Assembly (NCBI RefSeq): GCF_002879615.1
Contig: NZ_PNRF01000013.1
Span: 1 to 64,000, forward strand
Direction of reading: 5' to 3'
DNA length: 64,000 nt
Origin: Billgrantia endophytica
GTDB lineage: Bacteria; Pseudomonadota; Gammaproteobacteria; Pseudomonadales; Halomonadaceae
The position numbers and the translations under genes are program-made. Positions 14,987 to 51,561 of the stretch are shown here, piece by piece. The notes beneath the pieces are model-generated. The model was not told the DNA's origin. It did not search any database and was given only the letters and a program-made list of their open reading frames with translations. The stretch's first letter is position 1. Every line of letters begins with the position of its first letter.

Positions 14987-16402
14987 TCACTCCGGCTTGA
15001 AGGTGCTCGGCTCCAGCTCATGCCGGGCCAGCAGCTTGTAGAAGTCGGTTCGGTTACGCCCGGCGATACGGGCCGCCTGTGTCACGTTGCCCTCGGTGAT
15101 CTTGAGAACCTTGACCAGGTAACTGCGCTCGAAGGTGGCGCGGGCGTCATTGAAGGTGGGCAGGGCACACTCTTCAGCGACCAGGGCCTGGGCCACCAAG
15201 GCCTCGGGGATCATCGGCGAACGGGTCAGTGCCACACACTGCTCTACCACGTTGACCAACTGACGCACGTTGCCCGGCCAGGCGCTGGTCGCCAGCAGGT
15301 TGAGCGCTTCCGGCGAGAAACCTTTCACGAAGGGCTTGTGCCGCGCCGCCGCCAGGGCCACCAGGTGGCGCGCCAGCAGCGGCACGTCCTCGGCACGCTC
15401 CTTGAGCGGCGGAAGCTTGAGATTCACCACGTTGAGCCGGTAGAAAAAGTCCTCGCGGAACTCGCCCTGGTGCATGGCCTGACCGAGGTCCCGGTGGGTC
15501 GCGGAAATGATGCGCACGTTCACCGGCATCGAGGTGGTGGAGCCCAGCGGGCGAATCTGGCGCTCCTGCAGGGCCCGCAGCAGCTTGACCTGCAGGGCCA
15601 GCGGCATGTCGCCGATCTCGTCGAGGAAGAGCGTGCCGCCGTCGGCCGCCTGGAAAAGGCCCTGGTGTTCGCTCACGGCGCCGGTGAACGACCCCTTGGC
15701 ATGGCCGAAGAGTTCGCTCTCCAACAGTTGCTCCGGCAAGGCACCGCAGTTGATGGCGACGAAGGGCTTGCCGGCTCGCGGACTCGCCTGGTGAATGGCC
15801 CGGGCCAGCAGTTCCTTGCCCGAACCGGAGGGGCCGGTGACCAGTACGCTGACGTCCGAGGCCGCCACCATGCGCGCCTGTTCCAGCACCCGCTCCATCT
15901 CCGGGCTGCGCGTAATGATCTCGGCACGCCAGGCGTCGTCGCCCTCGCCGCCTGCCGGCGCCTGTGACAGGGCTTCGTCGATGGACTGGAAGAGCTCGTC
16001 CCGATCCACCGGTTTGGTGAGAAAGCTGAACACGCCCTGCTGGGTGGCATTGACCGCATCGGGTATCGAGCCATGAGCGGTCAGGATGATGACCGGCAGG
16101 CCCGGCACCTGGCGCTGGATCGCCTGGAACAGCGCCAGGCCATCCATTTCGTCCATACGCAGATCGGAGAGCACCAGATCGGGCCGCTCGGCACTCAGGC
16201 AGCGCAGCGCTTCCGAGCCACTCTCGGCCGTGGTGACACGAAAGCCGCGGCTCTCGAGCCGCATGCCCAACAGGCGCAGGAGACTGACGTCATCGTCTAC
16301 CAACAGAATATGTGCGCTGGATACCTTCGCGCCGGGTATCCGGACGCTGGCATGTCGAGCCTCGGACTTACGAGCATCAGTCAGTCGAGCCGCATCCATC
16401 AC
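14987..16402 (-). CDS. glrR: Sigma-54-dependent response regulator GlrR (QseF)
   Basis: Response regulator and bacterial enhancer-binding protein. The receiver domain carries VDDD and phospho-acceptor Asp80 in SDLRMDEMDG; the AAA+ domain has GPSGSGKE Walker A and LFLDEIGDMP Walker B; a Fis-type helix-turn-helix ends the protein (GNVTQAARIAGRNRTDFYKLL). Residue identity to E. coli GlrR is high by eye. The sigma-54-contact loop reads GSFTGA instead of the usual GAFTGA. The N-terminus has about 29 extra residues before the receiver, so the true start may be internal. It is the last gene of glrK-qseG-glrR; its likely target site lies upstream of glrK. Confidence 0.95.
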   Translation of the reverse strand: MMDAARLTDARKSEARHASVRIPGAKVSSAHILLVDDDVSLLRLLGMRLESRGFRVTTAESGSEALRCLSAERPDLVLSDLRMDEMDGLALFQAIQRQVPGLPVIILTAHGSIPDAVNATQQGVFSFLTKPVDRDELFQSIDEALSQAPAGGEGDDAWRAEIITRSPEMERVLEQARMVAASDVSVLVTGPSGSGKELLARAIHQASPRAGKPFVAINCGALPEQLLESELFGHAKGSFTGAVSEHQGLFQAADGGTLFLDEIGDMPLALQVKLLRALQERQIRPLGSTTSMPVNVRIISATHRDLGQAMHQGEFREDFFYRLNVVNLKLPPLKERAEDVPLLARHLVALAAARHKPFVKGFSPEALNLLATSAWPGNVRQLVNVVEQCVALTRSPMIPEALVAQALVAEECALPTFNDARATFERSYLVKVLKITEGNVTQAARIAGRNRTDFYKLLARHELEPSTFKPE

Positions 16403-16421: not shown

Positions 16422-16970
16422 TCAGGGCGACTGCTGTCTCAAGTTGATATTCTGCTCGATGGCGGTCAACGCCTCGAGCTTTTCGGCGAGCTGTTCGTTT
16501 TCCTGCTTCATGGCGGCCACGTCGCCGCGGGCGCGCGCCAGTTGGCCGGACATGGAGCGTCTTCCCTCCAGCTCATTGAGCCAATAGCGCAGCAGCGGCT
16601 GCAGCTTGGCAGGCGCCTCGTGGAGGTTGTCCCTGTAGAGGTCCGCAGCCTGTGACCACTGGCGCTCACTCCCCCAGGCCAGGGCCACGGCCCGGGCCAG
16701 GCTCAACTCGATCTCTCGCCCTGCCAGCCGTGCTTCCAGCGTTTCCAGCTTGGCGTTACGCCACGTGCTGTCGCCTCGCTGGGAGGCCAGCCCGAAGGCG
16801 ATCCAGTCGGGCAGCAGACAAACTTCCTCGTCAAAGGTCGGTACGGTGGCATGGCATTCCAGCGCCTCGGCTGCTTCTTCTGGCCGGGCGTGAGTCTGTT
16901 CGGGCAGAAGCTCGCAACCCGCCAACCACAGGGCCGAAAAAAAGGCACAGAAAATCTTCGTCGTCTTCAT
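16422..16970 (-). CDS. qseG: QseG-like outer-membrane lipoprotein
   Basis: Small lipoprotein between the kinase and regulator genes. The signal peptide ends in a lipobox LAGC (Cys19), and the C-terminal half is a coiled coil (about 145-175). In enterobacteria QseG interacts with the GlrK/QseE periplasmic part and tunes signalling. The position is the same here: it overlaps the end of glrK by 4 bases and ends 19 bp before glrR. Sequence similarity is weak outside the architecture, so the name rests mainly on synteny. Confidence 0.8.
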   Translation of the reverse strand: MKTTKIFCAFFSALWLAGCELLPEQTHARPEEAAEALECHATVPTFDEEVCLLPDWIAFGLASQRGDSTWRNAKLETLEARLAGREIELSLARAVALAWGSERQWSQAADLYRDNLHEAPAKLQPLLRYWLNELEGRRSMSGQLARARGDVAAMKQENEQLAEKLEALTAIEQNINLRQQSP

Positions 16971-18463
16971 CGTTCGCTCCTTGCGCCGATACCCGCCTGC
17001 ACGGGTTTCCTATTATTTATAGTGGTACTCAGCGGTACCGCCCGATGCGGCAGCGTCAGGCGGAAACACACATCCAGCTGCCTATCCTCGACAAGCTGCA
17101 GGCTGCCTTGATGAAGCCGGGCGCAGTCGGCGGCCACGGAGAGCCCGATGCCCGAACCCTTGAGCGGCCCCTTGCGCCGGGAGCGCCCCTGGTAGAAGGG
17201 TTCGAAAAGCTGCATGCGGTCATGCTCGGCAATGGGCTGGCCACTGTTGGCCACGTCCAGCACCAGATGCTCATGCCCTGCATGTGCCCGGATCAGCATG
17301 ACGCCGTCATCTTCGCCGTAGGCGATGGCGTTGGACACCAGATTATCGAGAATGCGCCCCATGGCGGTACGATCGACGACCCATTCCAGCGGGCCATCGA
17401 ACGCGGTCACCCGCATGCCCTTCTGCTCCAGCGCCAGCCGATGCTTGGCGAGGGTGCTCTTGACCAACGTAGCCAGATCCACGGGCTCGAGGGTAAGCCG
17501 ATGGTTATGCTGCAGCAAATTGTAATCGAGAAGCTGCTCGATCAGTCGCTGAAGCTCGCTGCCACTCGCGTCGATCAATGTGAGTATCTCGCGCTGATGC
17601 GGGCTCAGCTCACCCGCCACCCCATCGGCAAGCAGCGCGGAACCTTCCCGGACGCTGGCCAGCGGGGTCTTGAGTTCATGGGACATGTGACGCAGGAACT
17701 GCTGCTTCTGTGCCTCCAGCTCGTTGAGGCGAGACGAAAGCCAGGTCAGCCGTTCGCCCAGTTGCACCAGTTCTGCCGGGCCCTGGATCTTCTCCATCTC
17801 GGTATCTTCAACACCGCTGCCGATACCCAGGATACGGCGCTCCAACTGACGCACGGGCCGGATGATCAGCCAACTGAACAACAGCATCAACAGCAGACTG
17901 GCCGAGACCAGGGCGCCAGTCTGCAGCCAGAGCCGCGACTGCACGGCCACGGCCTGCTCACGGATCATCTCGATACGAGCATCGATGTGGCGGTTGGTGG
18001 CCCGCCGCATGGCTTCGGTATGCTGGGCGAAGGGGGCGAAGAGCGACAGCCAGACCTCCAGCTCCTCGGCATTCAGCTCCGGCAGCTGGGACAACAGCAG
18101 CAATTGTTCACCCAGGGCAATGACGTCGGGGTTATTGGGCAGCAAACGACGCTGCTGCGCCAGCAGATCCGCGAATTCGGCATGCCGCTCGGCATAGATA
18201 TCGAGCAGGCTCTCCTGTTCGATAACCGCATACTGGCGGGCGCTGCGCTCCATCTCCAGGGCCAGGCTGCTGAGTACTCGGGCGCGGCGGGTTTCTTCGA
18301 TTGCCTGACGCGCGCTGACATCCGCCAGTCGGGACAATTCGGAAAGGGCCTGACCAGCCTGGAACATCAAGATACCCAATGGCAGCATCACTACCAGAAA
18401 GGCCATCAGCACCAGCTGCGGCAGAGAGCGTGGACGCCATTGGCGCGAGACCCGTTCGGTCAT
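16967..18463 (-). CDS. glrK: Sensor histidine kinase GlrK (QseE)
   Basis: Membrane sensor kinase partner of GlrR. From the ATG at 18463 the order is one transmembrane segment (LVLMAFLVVMLPLGILMF), a periplasmic helical sensor of about 140 residues, a second transmembrane segment (TGALVSASLLLMLLFSWLII), HAMP, HisKA with phospho-acceptor His in MSHELKTPLASV, and HATPase_c with DNLVSNAIAYG and GSGIGLSVA. An open frame runs 144 bp further upstream but begins with unrelated residues, so the shorter start is preferred. The gene is directly downstream of the candidate small RNA gene on the same strand, as glmY precedes glrK in enterobacteria. Confidence 0.94.
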   Translation of the reverse strand: MTERVSRQWRPRSLPQLVLMAFLVVMLPLGILMFQAGQALSELSRLADVSARQAIEETRRARVLSSLALEMERSARQYAVIEQESLLDIYAERHAEFADLLAQQRRLLPNNPDVIALGEQLLLLSQLPELNAEELEVWLSLFAPFAQHTEAMRRATNRHIDARIEMIREQAVAVQSRLWLQTGALVSASLLLMLLFSWLIIRPVRQLERRILGIGSGVEDTEMEKIQGPAELVQLGERLTWLSSRLNELEAQKQQFLRHMSHELKTPLASVREGSALLADGVAGELSPHQREILTLIDASGSELQRLIEQLLDYNLLQHNHRLTLEPVDLATLVKSTLAKHRLALEQKGMRVTAFDGPLEWVVDRTAMGRILDNLVSNAIAYGEDDGVMLIRAHAGHEHLVLDVANSGQPIAEHDRMQLFEPFYQGRSRRKGPLKGSGIGLSVAADCARLHQGSLQLVEDRQLDVCFRLTLPHRAVPLSTTINNRKPVQAGIGARSER

Positions 18464-18579
18464 GACCAGTGTTCTATTCAATAATAAAGAGGGAACCACC
18501 ATGGTGCATGCCTGAAGGATAACAGAAATCGTCGCATTTAACGGCGCCTGGTTCAGCCCACCGTGCGCCTTGGTCCTAT
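18464..18579. other. Spacer between small RNA terminator and glrK
   Basis: About 115 bp between the T-run of the small RNA terminator and the glrK ATG. It should hold a separate glrK promoter unless terminator read-through is used. No clear promoter was picked out. Confidence 0.5.
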
Positions 18580-18605
18580 AAAAAAAGAGGCCGGCATAGC
18601 CGGCC
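18580..18605 (-). terminator. Terminator of the candidate small RNA
   Basis: GGCCGGC-TAT-GCCGGCC stem (18589-18605) is followed on the minus strand by CTC and seven T (18580-18586). It lies upstream of glrK and downstream of the RNA motifs. Confidence 0.9.
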
Positions 18606-19040
18606 AAGTACGCAGGGAACTGAAGGGGTTGAAAAATATGGGCATCGGTCGCCTGGCCGAGCCATGTCCATACTTTTCATGGGCCCGAGGGCCCCGAAGC
18701 ACTGTTGCCGAACCATGGCCACCAGGAGCAGGCCGAAACAGGTGAGCGGTGAACCACTCGGCTTCGTTTCCGTTGCACCACCGCCGGTGTCGCTTAGCCA
18801 GCGGTGGTCGTGCGCAATTCGATCCCCCGAGGGGGAGAGGCATCCTTGCCGGGGCATCCTTGCCCTACTGGTACCATTCCTTGCCTGTTGGCGGTACCCG
18901 TCTCATCGCAACCTAAGTTACACATCGCGGAGCAGACGCCGATCATCGTTGGGCCCGGGTGCACAGGGCATGGGGGGTGGTACCCGAGCTTCCCGATGAT
19001 CAAAAGTGGTTCGAGCCGTTTGAACCACTTCCGTTGCTCA
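18580..19040 (-). ncRNA. Candidate sigma-54/GlrR-driven, Csr/Rsm-type structured small RNA
   Basis: No credible protein gene lies here, but RNA signals agree. Start: a sigma-54 promoter at 19051-19066 predicts a 5' end near 19040. End: a GC-rich hairpin with T7 at 18580-18605. Inside, on the minus strand, two compact hairpins share an AAGGAT loop: GGGCAAGGATGCCC (18852-18865) and GGCAAGGATGCC (18839-18850). Further GGA sites occur in CAACGGAAG, ATCGGGAAG, CAAGGAATG, CAACGGAAAC and TATGGACATG contexts. Other stems are AAGTGGTTC/GAACCACTT, GATCATCG/CGATGATC and CCACCGC/GCGGTGG. GGA in hairpin loops is the CsrA/RsmA binding signature, so a CsrA-sequestering role is inferred. A glmY counterpart is the alternative, from position. 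Confidence 0.68.
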
Positions 19041-19050
19041 CCATGCATAG

Positions 19051-19066
19051 TGCCAAAGGCATGCCA
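19051..19066 (-). promoter_or_regulatory. Candidate sigma-54 promoter (-24/-12)
   Basis: The minus strand reads TGGCATG-CCTT-TGGCA against the consensus TGGCACG-N4-TTGCA: the GG at -24 and GC at -12 are kept, with two mismatches elsewhere. The predicted transcription start is about 19040. Confidence 0.7.
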
Positions 19067-19172
19067 TAAGCAGTAAATTTCATGTAAATGAATAAGTTAT
19101 ACCCAAAAAAACATCCAGCTCGTTTATTGATCCGCAAAACAGGAGGAAAAAGCGGGCTCGCAAGGCCTTTTC

Positions 19173-19190
19173 TGTCACCATATGGCGACA
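19173..19190. promoter_or_regulatory. GlrR-type activator binding site
   Basis: TGTCACCATATGGCGACA exactly fits TGTC-N10-GACA, the known GlrR/QseF recognition pattern, and is nearly palindromic throughout. It is centred about 140 bp upstream of the predicted sigma-54 start, a normal enhancer distance. Confidence 0.75.
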
Positions 19191-19269
19191 GTAAAATCAC
19201 TTAAATACATATAGCCTTTTGAATCAATGGTTTGAAACGTAGCTTTTTAGAGACAAGGCTTCAGGCAGC

Positions 19270-19317
19270 GTTGCCCCGAAGCGACAACCCGCCGCCATCG
19301 GCGGGAGTCGGGGCAAC
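19270..19317 (-). terminator. Large two-tier hairpin directly after argA
   Basis: Outer stem GTTGCCCCGA/TCGGGGCAAC (10 bp) encloses an inner stem CCCGCCG/CGGCGGG with loop CCAT. It starts 7 bp past the argA stop. No T-run follows, so it may act as a transcript 3' stabiliser or a U-less terminator. Confidence 0.6.
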
Positions 19318-19324
19318 AAGGTCT

Positions 19325-20638
19325 TCACGCGAGGGATTTGATAAGGATTTTCGACTTGCGGGCATGGTTATAGGTGTCCCGCTTCAACGGCGGGAGCGCC
19401 TCTATATCGGCATCGCGGAAGCCTTGCTCGACGAACCAGTGCGCCGTGTGAGTCGTCAGTACGAACAGGGCAGAGAGCCCCATTCGCCGGGCCCGGTGTT
19501 CGATCGCAGCCAGCAATAGCGCTCCCCGGGCTCCACCCCGGTAATCGACGTGGATCGCCAGGCAGGCCAACTCGCCCATCTCGGCCTCACCGAAGCGATG
19601 CAGCGCCGCGCAGCCGATGATCATCCCGTCCCGGTCGATCACGTGATAGTCGTCGATTTCATGTTCCAGTCGCTCGCGAGAACGCGGCACCAGCATGTCG
19701 CGGCGTTCCAGCGGCTCCAGCAGCTCCAGCAGACCACCGATGTCAGCCAGTTCCGCGGGACGAAGCTGTTCATATCGATGCTGGGTGATCATGGTACCCA
19801 CCCCGTCGCGGGTGAACAGTTCGCCGAGCAGGGCGTTGTGATCGTGCCAAGACAAGAGGTGGGTTCGCGCCACGCCATGGCGGGCGGCCGCACAGGCGGC
19901 GGCCAGATGACGTGCCTGCTCGCTGCCCGGCTCGGACTGCCCCAGCAGCGGTTCGGCTTCGGATGGCGTCAACTGACGCTGCAGGGCCCCGCTTTCATCG
20001 TAGAGACCGACGGCCTCGCCCAGCAGGATCAGTTTGTCGGCTGCCAGTGCCATGGCCGCATGCTGCGCCACCTCGGAGGCATCCAGGTCGAATACCTCGC
20101 CGGTGCTGGTAAAGCCCAGTGGCGGCAGCAGCACCAGCGAACCCCGGTCCAGCAGCCCCTGAACGGCCGCCGCCCTCACCCGGCGTACTTCGCCACTATG
20201 GTCGAAGTCGATGCCCTCACGTACGCCCAGGGGCTTGGCCATTACCAGATTGCCCGATACCGCCGTCAGCTCGACGCCGTGCAAGGGCGTGTTGGGCAGG
20301 CCCAGCGAGAGCCGGGCCTCCAGCCACAGGCGCTGTTCGGCGGCCACCCTTTCCACATGCCCCATGATGGCGGCATCGGCTACCCAGCGGCCAACATGGC
20401 GAACCGGATCGATTCCCGCGGCGTCCAGCGCCTGCTGCACCTGGGGGCGAATACCAAACACCACGACCAGTCGCACACCCAGCGTATGCAGCAGCGCCAG
20501 GTCCTGGATCAACTGCTCGCCTCGCCCTCGCGCCATGGCTTCTCCTTCGATGAGAATCACGAAGGTTCGGCCCCGATGCGCATTGATATAGGGCGATGAA
20601 TTGCGGAACCAGTCAACGAAAGGGAAACGAGTATCCAA
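19325..20638 (-). CDS. argA: N-acetylglutamate synthase
   Basis: Acetylates glutamate with acetyl-CoA, the first step of arginine synthesis. The 437 residues follow the classical ArgA plan: an N-terminal amino-acid-kinase domain (FVILIEGEAMARG, then VVVFGIRPQ) that binds arginine for feedback inhibition, and a C-terminal GNAT acetyltransferase (IIGCAALHRF, LAIHVDYRGGARGALLL). The first residues (FVDWFRNSSPYINAHRGRTFV) are the family hallmark. It stands alone, followed by a strong hairpin. The protein lacks a discernible ArgR box upstream that I could identify. Confidence 0.97.
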   Translation of the reverse strand: MDTRFPFVDWFRNSSPYINAHRGRTFVILIEGEAMARGRGEQLIQDLALLHTLGVRLVVVFGIRPQVQQALDAAGIDPVRHVGRWVADAAIMGHVERVAAEQRLWLEARLSLGLPNTPLHGVELTAVSGNLVMAKPLGVREGIDFDHSGEVRRVRAAAVQGLLDRGSLVLLPPLGFTSTGEVFDLDASEVAQHAAMALAADKLILLGEAVGLYDESGALQRQLTPSEAEPLLGQSEPGSEQARHLAAACAAARHGVARTHLLSWHDHNALLGELFTRDGVGTMITQHRYEQLRPAELADIGGLLELLEPLERRDMLVPRSRERLEHEIDDYHVIDRDGMIIGCAALHRFGEAEMGELACLAIHVDYRGGARGALLLAAIEHRARRMGLSALFVLTTHTAHWFVEQGFRDADIEALPPLKRDTYNHARKSKILIKSLA

Positions 20639-27012: not shown

Positions 27013-29028
27013 GTGTCCGCCAGCCCCCCTACCCTGCCCCCACTGGCCGGCCTCGAGACGGCCAAGCTCGACTGGTCGACCAACGACCTCGGCGAGACGG
27101 CCCCCCTGTCGGCCCAATTCGACGATGTCTATTTCTCTCGACAGGATGGCCGAACGGAAACCGAGCACGTCTTCCTCGCCGGCAACGACCTGTCGAACCG
27201 CTTCGCCAGTTGGCCGGCCGGCCGCCCCTTCGTGATCGGCGAGACCGGCTTCGGCACCGGGCTCAACATGCTCTGCGCGTGGGCCTGCTTCGATGCCCAC
27301 GCGCCGTCAGCGGCACGGCTGCACCTAGTGTCTACCGAGCGTTATCCGTTGTCCCGGGAGGATATCGAACGGGCACTGTCCGCCTGGCCGACGCTTGCGT
27401 CGCGCGCCGAGCGGTTGGTGCGCCAGTGGCCCCAGCCGGTGGCCGGCGTGCATCGCCTGTGGCTGGATGAACGGGTCACCCTGGACCTGCATTTCGGGGA
27501 TGCCGCCGAGCGGCTGCAACTGCTGGAGGGCGAGGTCGATGCCTGGTTCCTGGATGGCTTCGCACCATCGAAGAACCCCGACATGTGGCGACCCGAGCTT
27601 TTCGCCGCCATGGCGTCACGTTCACGGCCGGGAGCCACCTTTGCCACCTTCACCTGCGCGGGTATCGTCAAGCGTGGACTGGCCGAAGCGGGCTTCACCT
27701 GGCGCAAGGTACCGGGTGTCGGCCGCAAGCGGGAAATACTCACCGGCCACATTGCCGAACCACCGACACTGGCGCTGCGGGGATCGTCCCCCTGGTTCAC
27801 CCCGCCTCCCCGCCGTGCAGCCCGGCACGTGGCGGTGATCGGCGCCGGTATCGCCGGCACCAGCATGGCCCGCTCACTGGCCCGGCGCGGCCTGCGCGTC
27901 ACCCTGCTCGACCGCGAGGCACCGGGCGCGGGCGGCTCCGGCAACCGACAGGGAGTGCTCTACATCAAGCTGGCAGCGGACCCCAACGACCACAGCCGTT
28001 TCTACCTGGCCGGGCTGCAGCATACCTTGCGCTGGCTGCAGCACCTGGACCCCGGCCATGAGCTCTGGTCCCCCTGCGGACTGCTGCAGCTGGCCATGAC
28101 CGACCGGGAAGCCCGGCGCCAGGTGCGCTTCCTTGCCGCCCATCGTCTGCCCCAGGCGCTGCTCGCCGGCGTCGATGCCGACACGGCCACGCAGCAGGCG
28201 GGCGTCGAGCTCGATCACAGCGGGCTGAGTTACCCGGCCGCCGGCTGGGTCCGCCCCGGGGCCCTGTGCCAGTTCCTGGCCAGCGGCCCAGGCGTCGACT
28301 TCCGTCGCGGCGAAGTCACGGCGCTGGATGTCACGCAAGCCGGCTGGAAACTATCGCTGGCCGACGGCGAAGCCCTGGAGGTGGATCAGGTGGTTATCGC
28401 CAATGCTGACACGGCCAACCGCTTCGCACCCACCCATGGCCTGACGTTGCAGGTCATTCGCGGCCAGATCAGCCAGTTGACCCTTCCCGAGGGGGCCCCG
28501 GCGCTCTATCGCGTCGTCTGCGGCGGCGGCTATGTCACCCCGGCGCTGGATGGCGTACTGACGTTCGGTGCCACCTTCCTGCCCAACGATGCCGGCACGG
28601 CCATCCGTGAAGATGACCATGCCGCGAACCTGGCGGAACTGGAAAAGGGACTGCCGGCCTTCACCCGTGCGCTGCGCGAGGCCGGTGTGTCACTCGACCC
28701 GGCGAGCTGCCAGGGGCGCGCCTCCGTGCGTGCCGCCAGCCCCGACAAGTCGCCCTACGCCGGCCCGGTGCCGGATGTCGCCGCCTGGCGCAAGGACTAC
28801 GCCGTGCTGGCCAAGGACGCGACCCTGAGACCGGCCGTGGCCGGCAGGCACCATCCGGGTTTGTGGATCAGCGCCGCCCATGGCGCCCGCGGCATGGCCA
28901 GCGCCCCGCTGTGTGCCGAACTGATCGCTTCGAGGATCTGCGATGAGCCGCTGCCACTGGAGTGGCCGCTGGTGGATCACCTGCACCCGGGCAGGCGGGT
29001 GCTGCGCGACCTGGCACGTGGGAAGTAG
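27013..29028 (+). CDS. mnmC: Bifunctional tRNA modification enzyme MnmC
   Basis: Completes mnm5s2U at the wobble base of tRNAs: the C-terminal FAD domain removes carboxymethyl from cmnm5 and the N-terminal SAM domain methylates the amine. The 671 residues contain the methyltransferase (about 1-240: IGETGFGTGLNML, then WFLDGFAPSKNPDMW) and the FAD oxidoreductase (VIGAGIAGTSMARSLARRG near 273-291 as the dinucleotide motif, then SCQGRASVRAASPDKSPYAG and SAAHGARGM). An alternative start at GTG is not needed. It stands alone. Confidence 0.97.
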   Translation: MSASPPTLPPLAGLETAKLDWSTNDLGETAPLSAQFDDVYFSRQDGRTETEHVFLAGNDLSNRFASWPAGRPFVIGETGFGTGLNMLCAWACFDAHAPSAARLHLVSTERYPLSREDIERALSAWPTLASRAERLVRQWPQPVAGVHRLWLDERVTLDLHFGDAAERLQLLEGEVDAWFLDGFAPSKNPDMWRPELFAAMASRSRPGATFATFTCAGIVKRGLAEAGFTWRKVPGVGRKREILTGHIAEPPTLALRGSSPWFTPPPRRAARHVAVIGAGIAGTSMARSLARRGLRVTLLDREAPGAGGSGNRQGVLYIKLAADPNDHSRFYLAGLQHTLRWLQHLDPGHELWSPCGLLQLAMTDREARRQVRFLAAHRLPQALLAGVDADTATQQAGVELDHSGLSYPAAGWVRPGALCQFLASGPGVDFRRGEVTALDVTQAGWKLSLADGEALEVDQVVIANADTANRFAPTHGLTLQVIRGQISQLTLPEGAPALYRVVCGGGYVTPALDGVLTFGATFLPNDAGTAIREDDHAANLAELEKGLPAFTRALREAGVSLDPASCQGRASVRAASPDKSPYAGPVPDVAAWRKDYAVLAKDATLRPAVAGRHHPGLWISAAHGARGMASAPLCAELIASRICDEPLPLEWPLVDHLHPGRRVLRDLARGK

Positions 29029-50375: not shown

Positions 50376-50389
50376 AAAATCGATTTTAT
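50376..50389. promoter_or_regulatory. Candidate GntR operator, copy 2
   Basis: AAAATCGATTTTAT lies about 65 bp before the TRAP solute-binding gene and shares the AAAATCGATTT core with the copy at 48939. The 321-bp gap here otherwise shows only the preceding terminator. Confidence 0.55.
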
Positions 50390-50454
50390 GGCATGACGCT
50401 TGCAGAGCAAGGAATGTCAGCACCACGTCCATAACAATTGCAAAGGTGACTTTC

Positions 50455-51561
50455 ATGACCTTCTCGCGTCGCAAATTCCTGACTACCGCCGCTGTCTCCT
50501 CAACTGCCGGCATGATCATGGGCGCACCCGCCATTGCCCGGGCCCAGCCTGCCGAGTCCTTCAACTGGCGCATGACCAATGCCTATGGCCCCAGTGCTCC
50601 GTTCTATACCGTAGGCCCCGGCAGCCCCACCGATGTCATCCAGAAGATCAACACCATGTCGGGTGGCAGGCTGAATATCCAGCACTTTGCCGCCGGCGAG
50701 TTGATCCCCGCCTTCGAAGGATTCGAAGCCGTGCAGAGCGGCACCATCGAGATGAATGCAGCGAACAGCTATTTCTGGTCCGGTAGTACCTTTGCCGCGC
50801 AGTACTTCACCACTGTGCCCTTCGGCATGAGCTATATGGGCCATATGGCCTGGCTGTACCACGGGGGCGGTCTCGAGCTGTGGCAGGAGGTCTATGAGCC
50901 CTACGGCCTGGTTGCCCTACCGCTCAACAATACCGGCGTGCAAATGACAGGCTGGTTCCGTGAGCCGATCGAGGACGTCAGCCAGTTGAACGGCCTGCGG
51001 ATGCGGATCCCCGGGCTGGCGGGTCAAGTCTATTCCGCCCTTGGAGTGGACGCACGGGCACTTCCGGGGGGCGAAATCTTCCCCGCGCTGGAACGCGGCG
51101 TCATCGATGCGGCGGAGTTCGTCGGCCCCTATCAGGACCGACGCCTGGGGCTGCAGAATGCCGCCAAATATTACCACACCACCGGCTGGCACGAACCGGC
51201 CACCACCGGCGAGTTGCTGATCTCGAAATCTCACTGGGACAACCTGCCCGAAGACCTGCAGATGATCGTACGCACCGTTTGCCAGGCTGCCTGCCTGGAA
51301 AGCTTGAGCTGGTCCGAGGCGGTGAATGGTGAGGCACTGACCGACCTGGTGGAAAATCACGGTGTAACGGCGTCCGTGCTGCCCCCTCCTGTCGTGGATG
51401 CACTGCGCGAAGCCACCCTCGACACGTTGGAAACGGAAGCGAATGCCGACCCCCTGGTGCGCAGGGTTCACGATAGCTACATGACCTTCAAGGCCAACCA
51501 TGACCGTTGGGCGGCCATCAGTGAAGGCCCATGGCTCAAAGATATCCTGGGAGTCGTTTGA
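50455..51561 (+). CDS. TRAP transporter solute-binding protein (DctP-type)
   Basis: Periplasmic binding protein of 368 residues. It has a Tat signal peptide (FSRRKFLTTAAVSSTAGMIMG, with twin arginines), typical for the larger DctP relatives of the mannonate/2-oxo acid branch. The binding-domain motifs include FGMSYMGHMAWLYHGGG and a conserved Arg in GLRMRIPGLAGQV. ATG 50455 is chosen over a GTG three codons earlier because AAAGG sits before it. The solute is unknown, probably a small organic acid anion. Confidence 0.93.
   Translation: MTFSRRKFLTTAAVSSTAGMIMGAPAIARAQPAESFNWRMTNAYGPSAPFYTVGPGSPTDVIQKINTMSGGRLNIQHFAAGELIPAFEGFEAVQSGTIEMNAANSYFWSGSTFAAQYFTTVPFGMSYMGHMAWLYHGGGLELWQEVYEPYGLVALPLNNTGVQMTGWFREPIEDVSQLNGLRMRIPGLAGQVYSALGVDARALPGGEIFPALERGVIDAAEFVGPYQDRRLGLQNAAKYYHTTGWHEPATTGELLISKSHWDNLPEDLQMIVRTVCQAACLESLSWSEAVNGEALTDLVENHGVTASVLPPPVVDALREATLDTLETEANADPLVRRVHDSYMTFKANHDRWAAISEGPWLKDILGVV

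Follow-up and report, generated by a model that had tools for sequence, protein, structure and literature searches.

A predicted RNA gene between argA and glrK

In the window, the whole stretch of 64,000 nucleotides of Billgrantia endophytica DNA that was analysed, the gap between argA and glrK contains on its minus strand what is predicted to be an RNA gene, about 460 nt long. The genes around it are arranged as follows.

14987–16402, minus strand: glrR, sigma-54 response regulator, whose product lies above the curated equivalog cut-off for GlrR (805.4 vs 763 bits)
16422–16970, minus strand: small putative lipoprotein in the qseG position, without a family match
16967–18463, minus strand: glrK, histidine kinase, the downstream neighbour; start codon uncertain
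18580–19041, minus strand: predicted RNA of about 460 nt, its start placed from the −12 element and its end from the terminator
19325–20638, minus strand: argA, the upstream neighbour

The name glrK is based on position and on similarity to histidine kinases; no curated kinase model reached its cut-off. Ahead of glrK, a conserved TGTTATCCT (18517–18527, minus strand) resembles by eye an extended −10 and is perhaps a separate glrK promoter. The full RNA sequence occurs once in its own genome, and a search for plasmid copies of the gene found none.

The initial annotation had proposed an RNA gene of this length directly upstream of glrK, to be followed by a comparison of gene order in relatives. 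The order argA-RNA-glrK is found in 72 of 73 primary loci (41 of the first 42 and all 31 further ones). At a single primary locus, L011 in genome G014, the RNA gene and glrK are there and argA is missing from the 1.5 kb upstream; L011, with argA absent from its stretch, was excluded from the slot alignment, which comprises 41 loci. No plausible protein had been seen in the gap, and a conserved ORF in relatives had been named as evidence against an RNA gene. Such an ORF was looked for and not found: the gap has seven ORFs of 60–111 aa, each of which stays open over its full length in only 0–4 of 40 relatives, and a Pfam scan of five gap ORFs gave nothing above the cut-off, with one line (E 0.06) below it. 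Protein coding in the gap was rejected because the ORFs are not kept and Pfam gives no match above its cut-off.

The predicted transcript contains the following elements.

19004–19030, minus strand: 5' hairpin with a conserved loop and a stem that changes yet still pairs
18898–18928, minus strand: GCGAUGUGUAACUUAGGUUGCGAUGAGACGG, the most conserved stretch of the core
18870–18898, minus strand: GGUACC-closed element with the first ANGGA
18852–18865, minus strand: second ANGGA hairpin, GGGC-AAGGAU-GCCC, with a co-varying stem
18839–18850, minus strand: third ANGGA hairpin, GGC-AAGGAU-GCC, whose stem never varies among 39 diverse rows
18608–18627, minus strand: invariant 3' segment CCCUUCAGUUCCCUGCGUAC, a possible base-pairing seed, kept in 40 of 41 loci and common to a second RNA
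18580–18605, minus strand: intrinsic terminator, a hairpin followed by a T-run, already present in the initial annotation

The fold of the RNA beats those of 100 shuffled sequences (z −3.1). We built a structural model, R1, and the alignments A1 and A2 from 27 of the 41 loci, hand-picked to thin near-duplicates. Across 77 matches to R1 (alignment A4), 97.4% of cells are in standard pairs, compared with 35–60% when the partners are slid, and 22 of 35 pairs show two-sided changes; A4 was fitted to R1, so these figures lean towards the model, and it includes a weak false match (L056:754–880), which was counted in the pairing test and excluded from the 76 cores described below. The 5' hairpin has matched stem variants, for example GUGGUU/AACCAC and GUGAUU/AAUCAC; misalignment caused RNAalifold to miss this hairpin in the full-length alignment, and its fold was not used for this element.

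At gathering score, Rfam finds no family in the window or in nine loci. With E values up to 10, seven weak lines appear in the slot (E 0.27–8.6), all far under gathering and none of them GlmY or GlmZ; three (SorX, suhB and Hrs13) fall on the terminator. The RsmY family was tried and rejected, as 4 of 19 relatives showed lines under the threshold, none of the 19 had one above the cut-off and the own genome had no line at all. The co-varying structure, the lack of a kept ORF and a presence that tracks GlrR bear out the gene as first proposed, and on this comparative evidence it is almost certainly real and of the GlrR/sigma-54 type.

Sigma-54 promoter and GlrR-type sites

Upstream of the predicted RNA start lie four candidate control elements.

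19051–19066, minus strand: sigma-54 −24/−12 element TGGCATGCCTTTGGCA
19173–19190, minus strand: first (near) GlrR-type site, an exact TGTC-N10-GACA (8/8)
19238–19255, minus strand: second GlrR-type site TGTCTCTAAAAAGCTACG (6/8)
19269–19286, minus strand: third (distal) GlrR-type site TGTCGCTTCGGGGCAACG (6/8)

The sigma-54 element and the exact palindrome were both read correctly from the start, and all 41 aligned loci of relatives retain GG-N10-GC. The accompanying claim of control through one GlrR-type site stands in that the exact site is real, and has to be extended to three sites by the two further upstream. In the window alone, neither motif stands out: the sigma-54 pattern occurs at 34 sites with at most two mismatches (33.1 expected, no excess), and the exact palindrome occurs twice (0.72 expected), a count matched by 19 of 100 shuffles. 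The other exact TGTC-N10-GACA, at 27126–27143, lies inside the mnmC gene (27013–29028) and is probably there by chance. Elsewhere in the window, an exact sigma-54 pattern, TGGCATGACGCTTGCA (50389–50404, plus strand), is found about 40 nt before the ORF at 50446–51561, which encodes a TRAP-transporter binding protein of the DctP type.

Although these single-window counts match chance, the promoter motifs are significant because they are conserved across relatives. Measured from the −24 element, the GlrR-type sites fall into bands at about −113 to −128, −178 to −194 and −209 to −225. Sites scoring at least 7/8 are found in 29, 23 and 8 of the 41 loci in the near, mid and far bands, respectively, and sites scoring at least 6/8 in 40, 40 and 38. 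Among 205 control bands from the same promoters (−110 to −30, downstream of the site bands), none reaches 7/8 and eight reach 6/8. The three bands were scored separately from the best-site scan, which covered −230 to −30 and in some loci picked a site outside them. The distal site overlaps a terminator-like inverted repeat 3' of argA (19270–19317), and this repeat may explain the distal site in the window. A GacA/UvrY box, which we take to be TGTAAG-N6-CTTACA, matches the slot at best at 8/12 positions in the window and at 7–10/12 in 68 named stretches. The comparative evidence supports sigma-54/GlrR-type control of the RNA gene.

ANGGA hairpins in the conserved core

The initial annotation had overlooked both the ANGGA hairpins and the existence of another locus that shares the 3' end. 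The core is laid out as a GGUACC-closed ANGGA element, then GGGC-ANGGAN-GCCC, then GGC-ANGGAN-GCC, so that two of the three motifs lie within short hairpins. At least three ANGGA motifs are present in 75 of 76 cores, the exception (L022) having two. In the 27-row alignment, both hairpins vary at the N positions only. In alignment A5, whose 39 diverse rows are independent of the model, the two hairpins are paired in 98.5% of cells, compared with 40–59% for slid partners. The GGGC-type hairpin has two-sided changes in 3 of its 4 pairs, in 12 cells of the 39 rows: its stem swaps G-C for A-U and C-G for A-U or U-A, with ANGGA retained. In a shuffle control on the two hairpins, 34 of 500 shuffles reach three two-sided pairs and none of 500 reaches 12 cells.

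The own transcript contains six ANGGA motifs and two closed ANGGA hairpins, counts reached by 9 and 7 of 2000 shuffles, respectively, in tests whose patterns were picked post hoc with the sequence already seen. Whole transcripts from the 41 loci have 3 to 9 ANGGA each. Short hairpins with unpaired ANGGA are given as the hallmark of CsrA decoy RNAs in the relevant passage of PMC7366521. The own genome has one csrA (94.6 bits), and an excerpt of PMC12889724 gives the CsrA of Halomonas hydrothermalis as 86% identical to that of E. coli. From the motifs and their conservation, CsrA very probably binds the core, and titration of CsrA is likely to be a main role of the RNA.

The 3' end and a second RNA

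Directly ahead of the terminator, CCCUUCAGUUCCCUGCGUA is found in 40 of 41 loci. The 19-nt 3' segment and terminator also end a second RNA elsewhere in the own genome (contig C49 of G000, L044:1501–1760, E 6e-4), and at least 18 genomes of the genus contain further loci that match the 3' end only. Six second-locus RNAs (L044, L051, L052, L053, L057 and L058) all have a sigma-54-like element; three of them (L052, L057 and L058) have a palindrome scoring at least 7/8, and five lack a hairpin of the CANGGATG type. A GGDEF gene closely follows the second RNA in L044, L051 and L057, and a HIT-family gene is also close by. In genus g20 (L054, L055 and L056), second copies away from glrK carry the ANGGA core as well; the L054 copy adjoins the urease accessory genes ureF and ureG.

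Across the class, the 3' segment was found in 2 of 369 genomes, both Halomonadaceae. We considered glmS as a pairing target and rejected it: against 12 glmS leaders, the 3' segment pairs no better than shuffles do (ranks 67–194 of 200), and none of the 12 leaders beats 95% of shuffles. Its near invariance and its sharing between two RNAs lead us to favour base-pairing of the 3' end with mRNAs, at somewhat lower confidence than titration.

Distribution of the RNA and its link to GlrR

A DNA match is present in 88 of 90 same-genus genomes, the own genome included; those without one are G033, in which the gene is lost, and G062, which is 72% complete. In a sample of the family, 132 of 201 genomes have a DNA match; searched with model R1, 131 of 221 genomes of the family contain the core, and these represent 16 of 24 genera. 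Across the order, R1 finds it in 12 of 390 genomes, 10 of them Halomonadaceae. The two hits outside the family, G261 and G352 (E 9e-4 and 5e-3 in the search of 390 genomes), were treated as chance because they have no adjacent argA or glrK and no GlrR ortholog. For a 27-nt piece of the core, GTDB gives matches only in Halomonadaceae and in one unclassified gammaproteobacterium, where glrK adjoins the RNA.

Among 68 named core-bearing stretches, whose genera we take to be Halomonadaceae (Litchfieldella was checked), 58 have both neighbours, eight have one and two have neither. In the eight, no more than about 600 bases separate the core from the end of the stretch; the two look like second copies because the same strains have a further listed stretch. 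The core is also present in Litchfieldella anticariensis FP35 (L159), presumably the renamed Halomonas anticariensis.

The co-occurrence with GlrR was analyzed in 38 genomes, hand-picked with the core-search result already known. A GlrR ortholog above 700 bits is present in 24 of them (22 over the cut-off) and absent from 14. The core is found in 19 of the 24 GlrR genomes, and all 12 family members that have no GlrR lack it; the RNA gene itself is kept in the slot by 23 of the 24. The genome that lacks it, G033 (L140, 2.9 Mb), has argA and glrK 16 nt apart, the RNA gene lost and glrR kept. The RNAs of G104 and G119 have diverged and contain one and two ANGGA hairpins, respectively. In G110 and G124 (L142 and L144), the promoter, 3' end and terminator are kept and the ANGGA hairpin is absent; the L144 promoter was identified by eye in the slot, as the script's pattern gave no flag. 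Judged by these exceptions, the RNA has its more general part in the 3' end, and the CsrA-type core is the usual part. CsrA binding cannot account for the whole function of the RNA, since L142 and L144 have no ANGGA hairpin and five of the six second-locus RNAs have none of the CANGGATG type.

Discussion

We propose that, upon a signal to GlrK, phosphorylated GlrR would bind the three phased sites and switch on transcription by sigma-54 RNA polymerase from one promoter; for the signal itself, we rely on analogy with enterobacteria. The product, a structured RNA of about 460 nt acting in trans, would end on its own terminator just before glrK. Its three ANGGA motifs, two of them in small hairpin loops, would bind CsrA and thereby keep it from its mRNA targets, and the nearly invariant 3' end beside the terminator would probably base-pair with mRNAs, perhaps with Hfq. 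A CsrA decoy switched by GlrR and sigma-54, with a probable base-pairing 3' end, is in our judgement the best reading of the sequence data, and a reasonably likely one. A more specific version, in which a lineage-specific dual RNA joins a CsrA-sequestering domain to a seed domain under a GlrK-GlrR/sigma-54 switch and has a sister RNA with the same seed, is plausible but falls a little short of probable.

The closest positional counterpart is GlmY of Enterobacteriaceae, with which the RNA has in common the slot before glrK/qseE and a sigma-54 promoter. GlmY is shorter than 200 nt, compared with about 460 nt here. The RNA here also differs in having no Rfam similarity to GlmY, in its ANGGA hairpins and in the lack of detected pairing with glmS. 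In Proteus, the consensus is TGTCN10GACA with three putative QseF sites (promoter description in PMC8745638); three GlrR-type sites are found here. GlmY sequesters the RNA-binding protein RapZ, according to an excerpt of PMC7073468, and an analogous role is proposed here for CsrA. The GlmY likeness drawn in the initial annotation thus holds for position and control and fails at the level of the Rfam family; the kinship is only positional and regulatory. That the RNA is nonetheless a working GlmY, a RapZ decoy that protects a GlmZ-like RNA and raises GlmS, is improbable. The shared slot and control logic, a sister RNA with an identical 3' end and a RapZ-type protein in 7 of 7 genomes checked would fit such a role, but the Rfam result and the shuffle-level pairing with the glmS leaders speak against it, and RapZ does not discriminate, being present also in G099, which has no GlrR, and in G033, which has lost the RNA. 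Even less probable is a role in cis, as a leader or attenuator of the glrK operon. The RNA does end directly before glrK, and Proteus glmY is co-transcribed with qseEGF (transcript data in PMC8745638), yet a complete terminator stands ahead of glrK, the core copies L054–L056 and six 3'-end loci lie away from glrK, and G033 retains glrK without the RNA.

The strongest alternative to the CsrA decoy is an sRNA that acts by base-pairing through its 3' segment, CsrA binding merely altering its stability or pairing, without titration; we regard it as rather unlikely. It accounts for the wide retention of the 3' segment, even in L142 and L144 without the ANGGA core and in the second RNA, and it has a precedent in E. 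coli, where CsrA alters the outcomes of sRNAs that it binds (as described in part of PMC10729762). CsrA might act on the RNA rather than being titrated by it. The conserved ANGGA motifs, moreover, number only three, and CsrB has 18 sites by the count in PMC7366521, a difference that counts against the decoy reading. On the other side, the ANGGA hairpins are strongly constrained, in 75 of 76 cores and with co-varying stems, and McaS, with four GGA, is able to titrate CsrA (McaS passages of PMC10729762).

Among CsrA-family decoys, CsrB/CsrC and RsmX/Y/Z have in common with the RNA several ANGGA motifs in short hairpins. They have 11 to 28 motifs, compared with three conserved ones here, and the RNA has no Rfam match to them. 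In Table 1 of PMC7366521, they are under GacA/UvrY-type systems, whereas the control here is of the sigma-54/GlrR type with no GacA box. RsmV and RsmW of Pseudomonas aeruginosa are described in the same review as Gac-independent decoys, as proposed here, and as specific to P. aeruginosa; its passages on these RNAs make no mention of GlrR control. McaS of E. coli has four GGA motifs, binds two CsrA and is also a base-pairing sRNA, and E. coli GlmZ is reported to bind CsrA in vitro at 6 uM (both from excerpts of PMC10729762). Rfam shows no sequence relation between McaS and the RNA. The promoter control of McaS differs as well. We found no paper pairing Halomonas with GlmY or GlrR in a search that mostly excluded subscription papers; for QseF with CsrB, and for CsrA with sigma54-dependent activators, titles and abstract openings contain no such decoy.

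In the table of Csr circuits in PMC7366521 (Table 1), the CsrA-antagonising sRNA of Halomonas anticariensis is given as unknown. Because the core is present in Litchfieldella anticariensis FP35, the RNA described here is a concrete candidate for it. If the decoy reading is correct, GlrR and sigma-54, rather than GacA only, would be coupled to CsrA activity, and a single slot and promoter logic would be used for decoys of two different RNA-binding proteins in two lineages. If the dual RNA is real, the decoy encoded in the glmY slot of Halomonadaceae would have another RNA-binding protein as its target, and the GlrK signal would replace or supplement Gac as the input of the Csr circuit. Through the global regulator CsrA, such a decoy could tie the GlrK signal to central metabolism.
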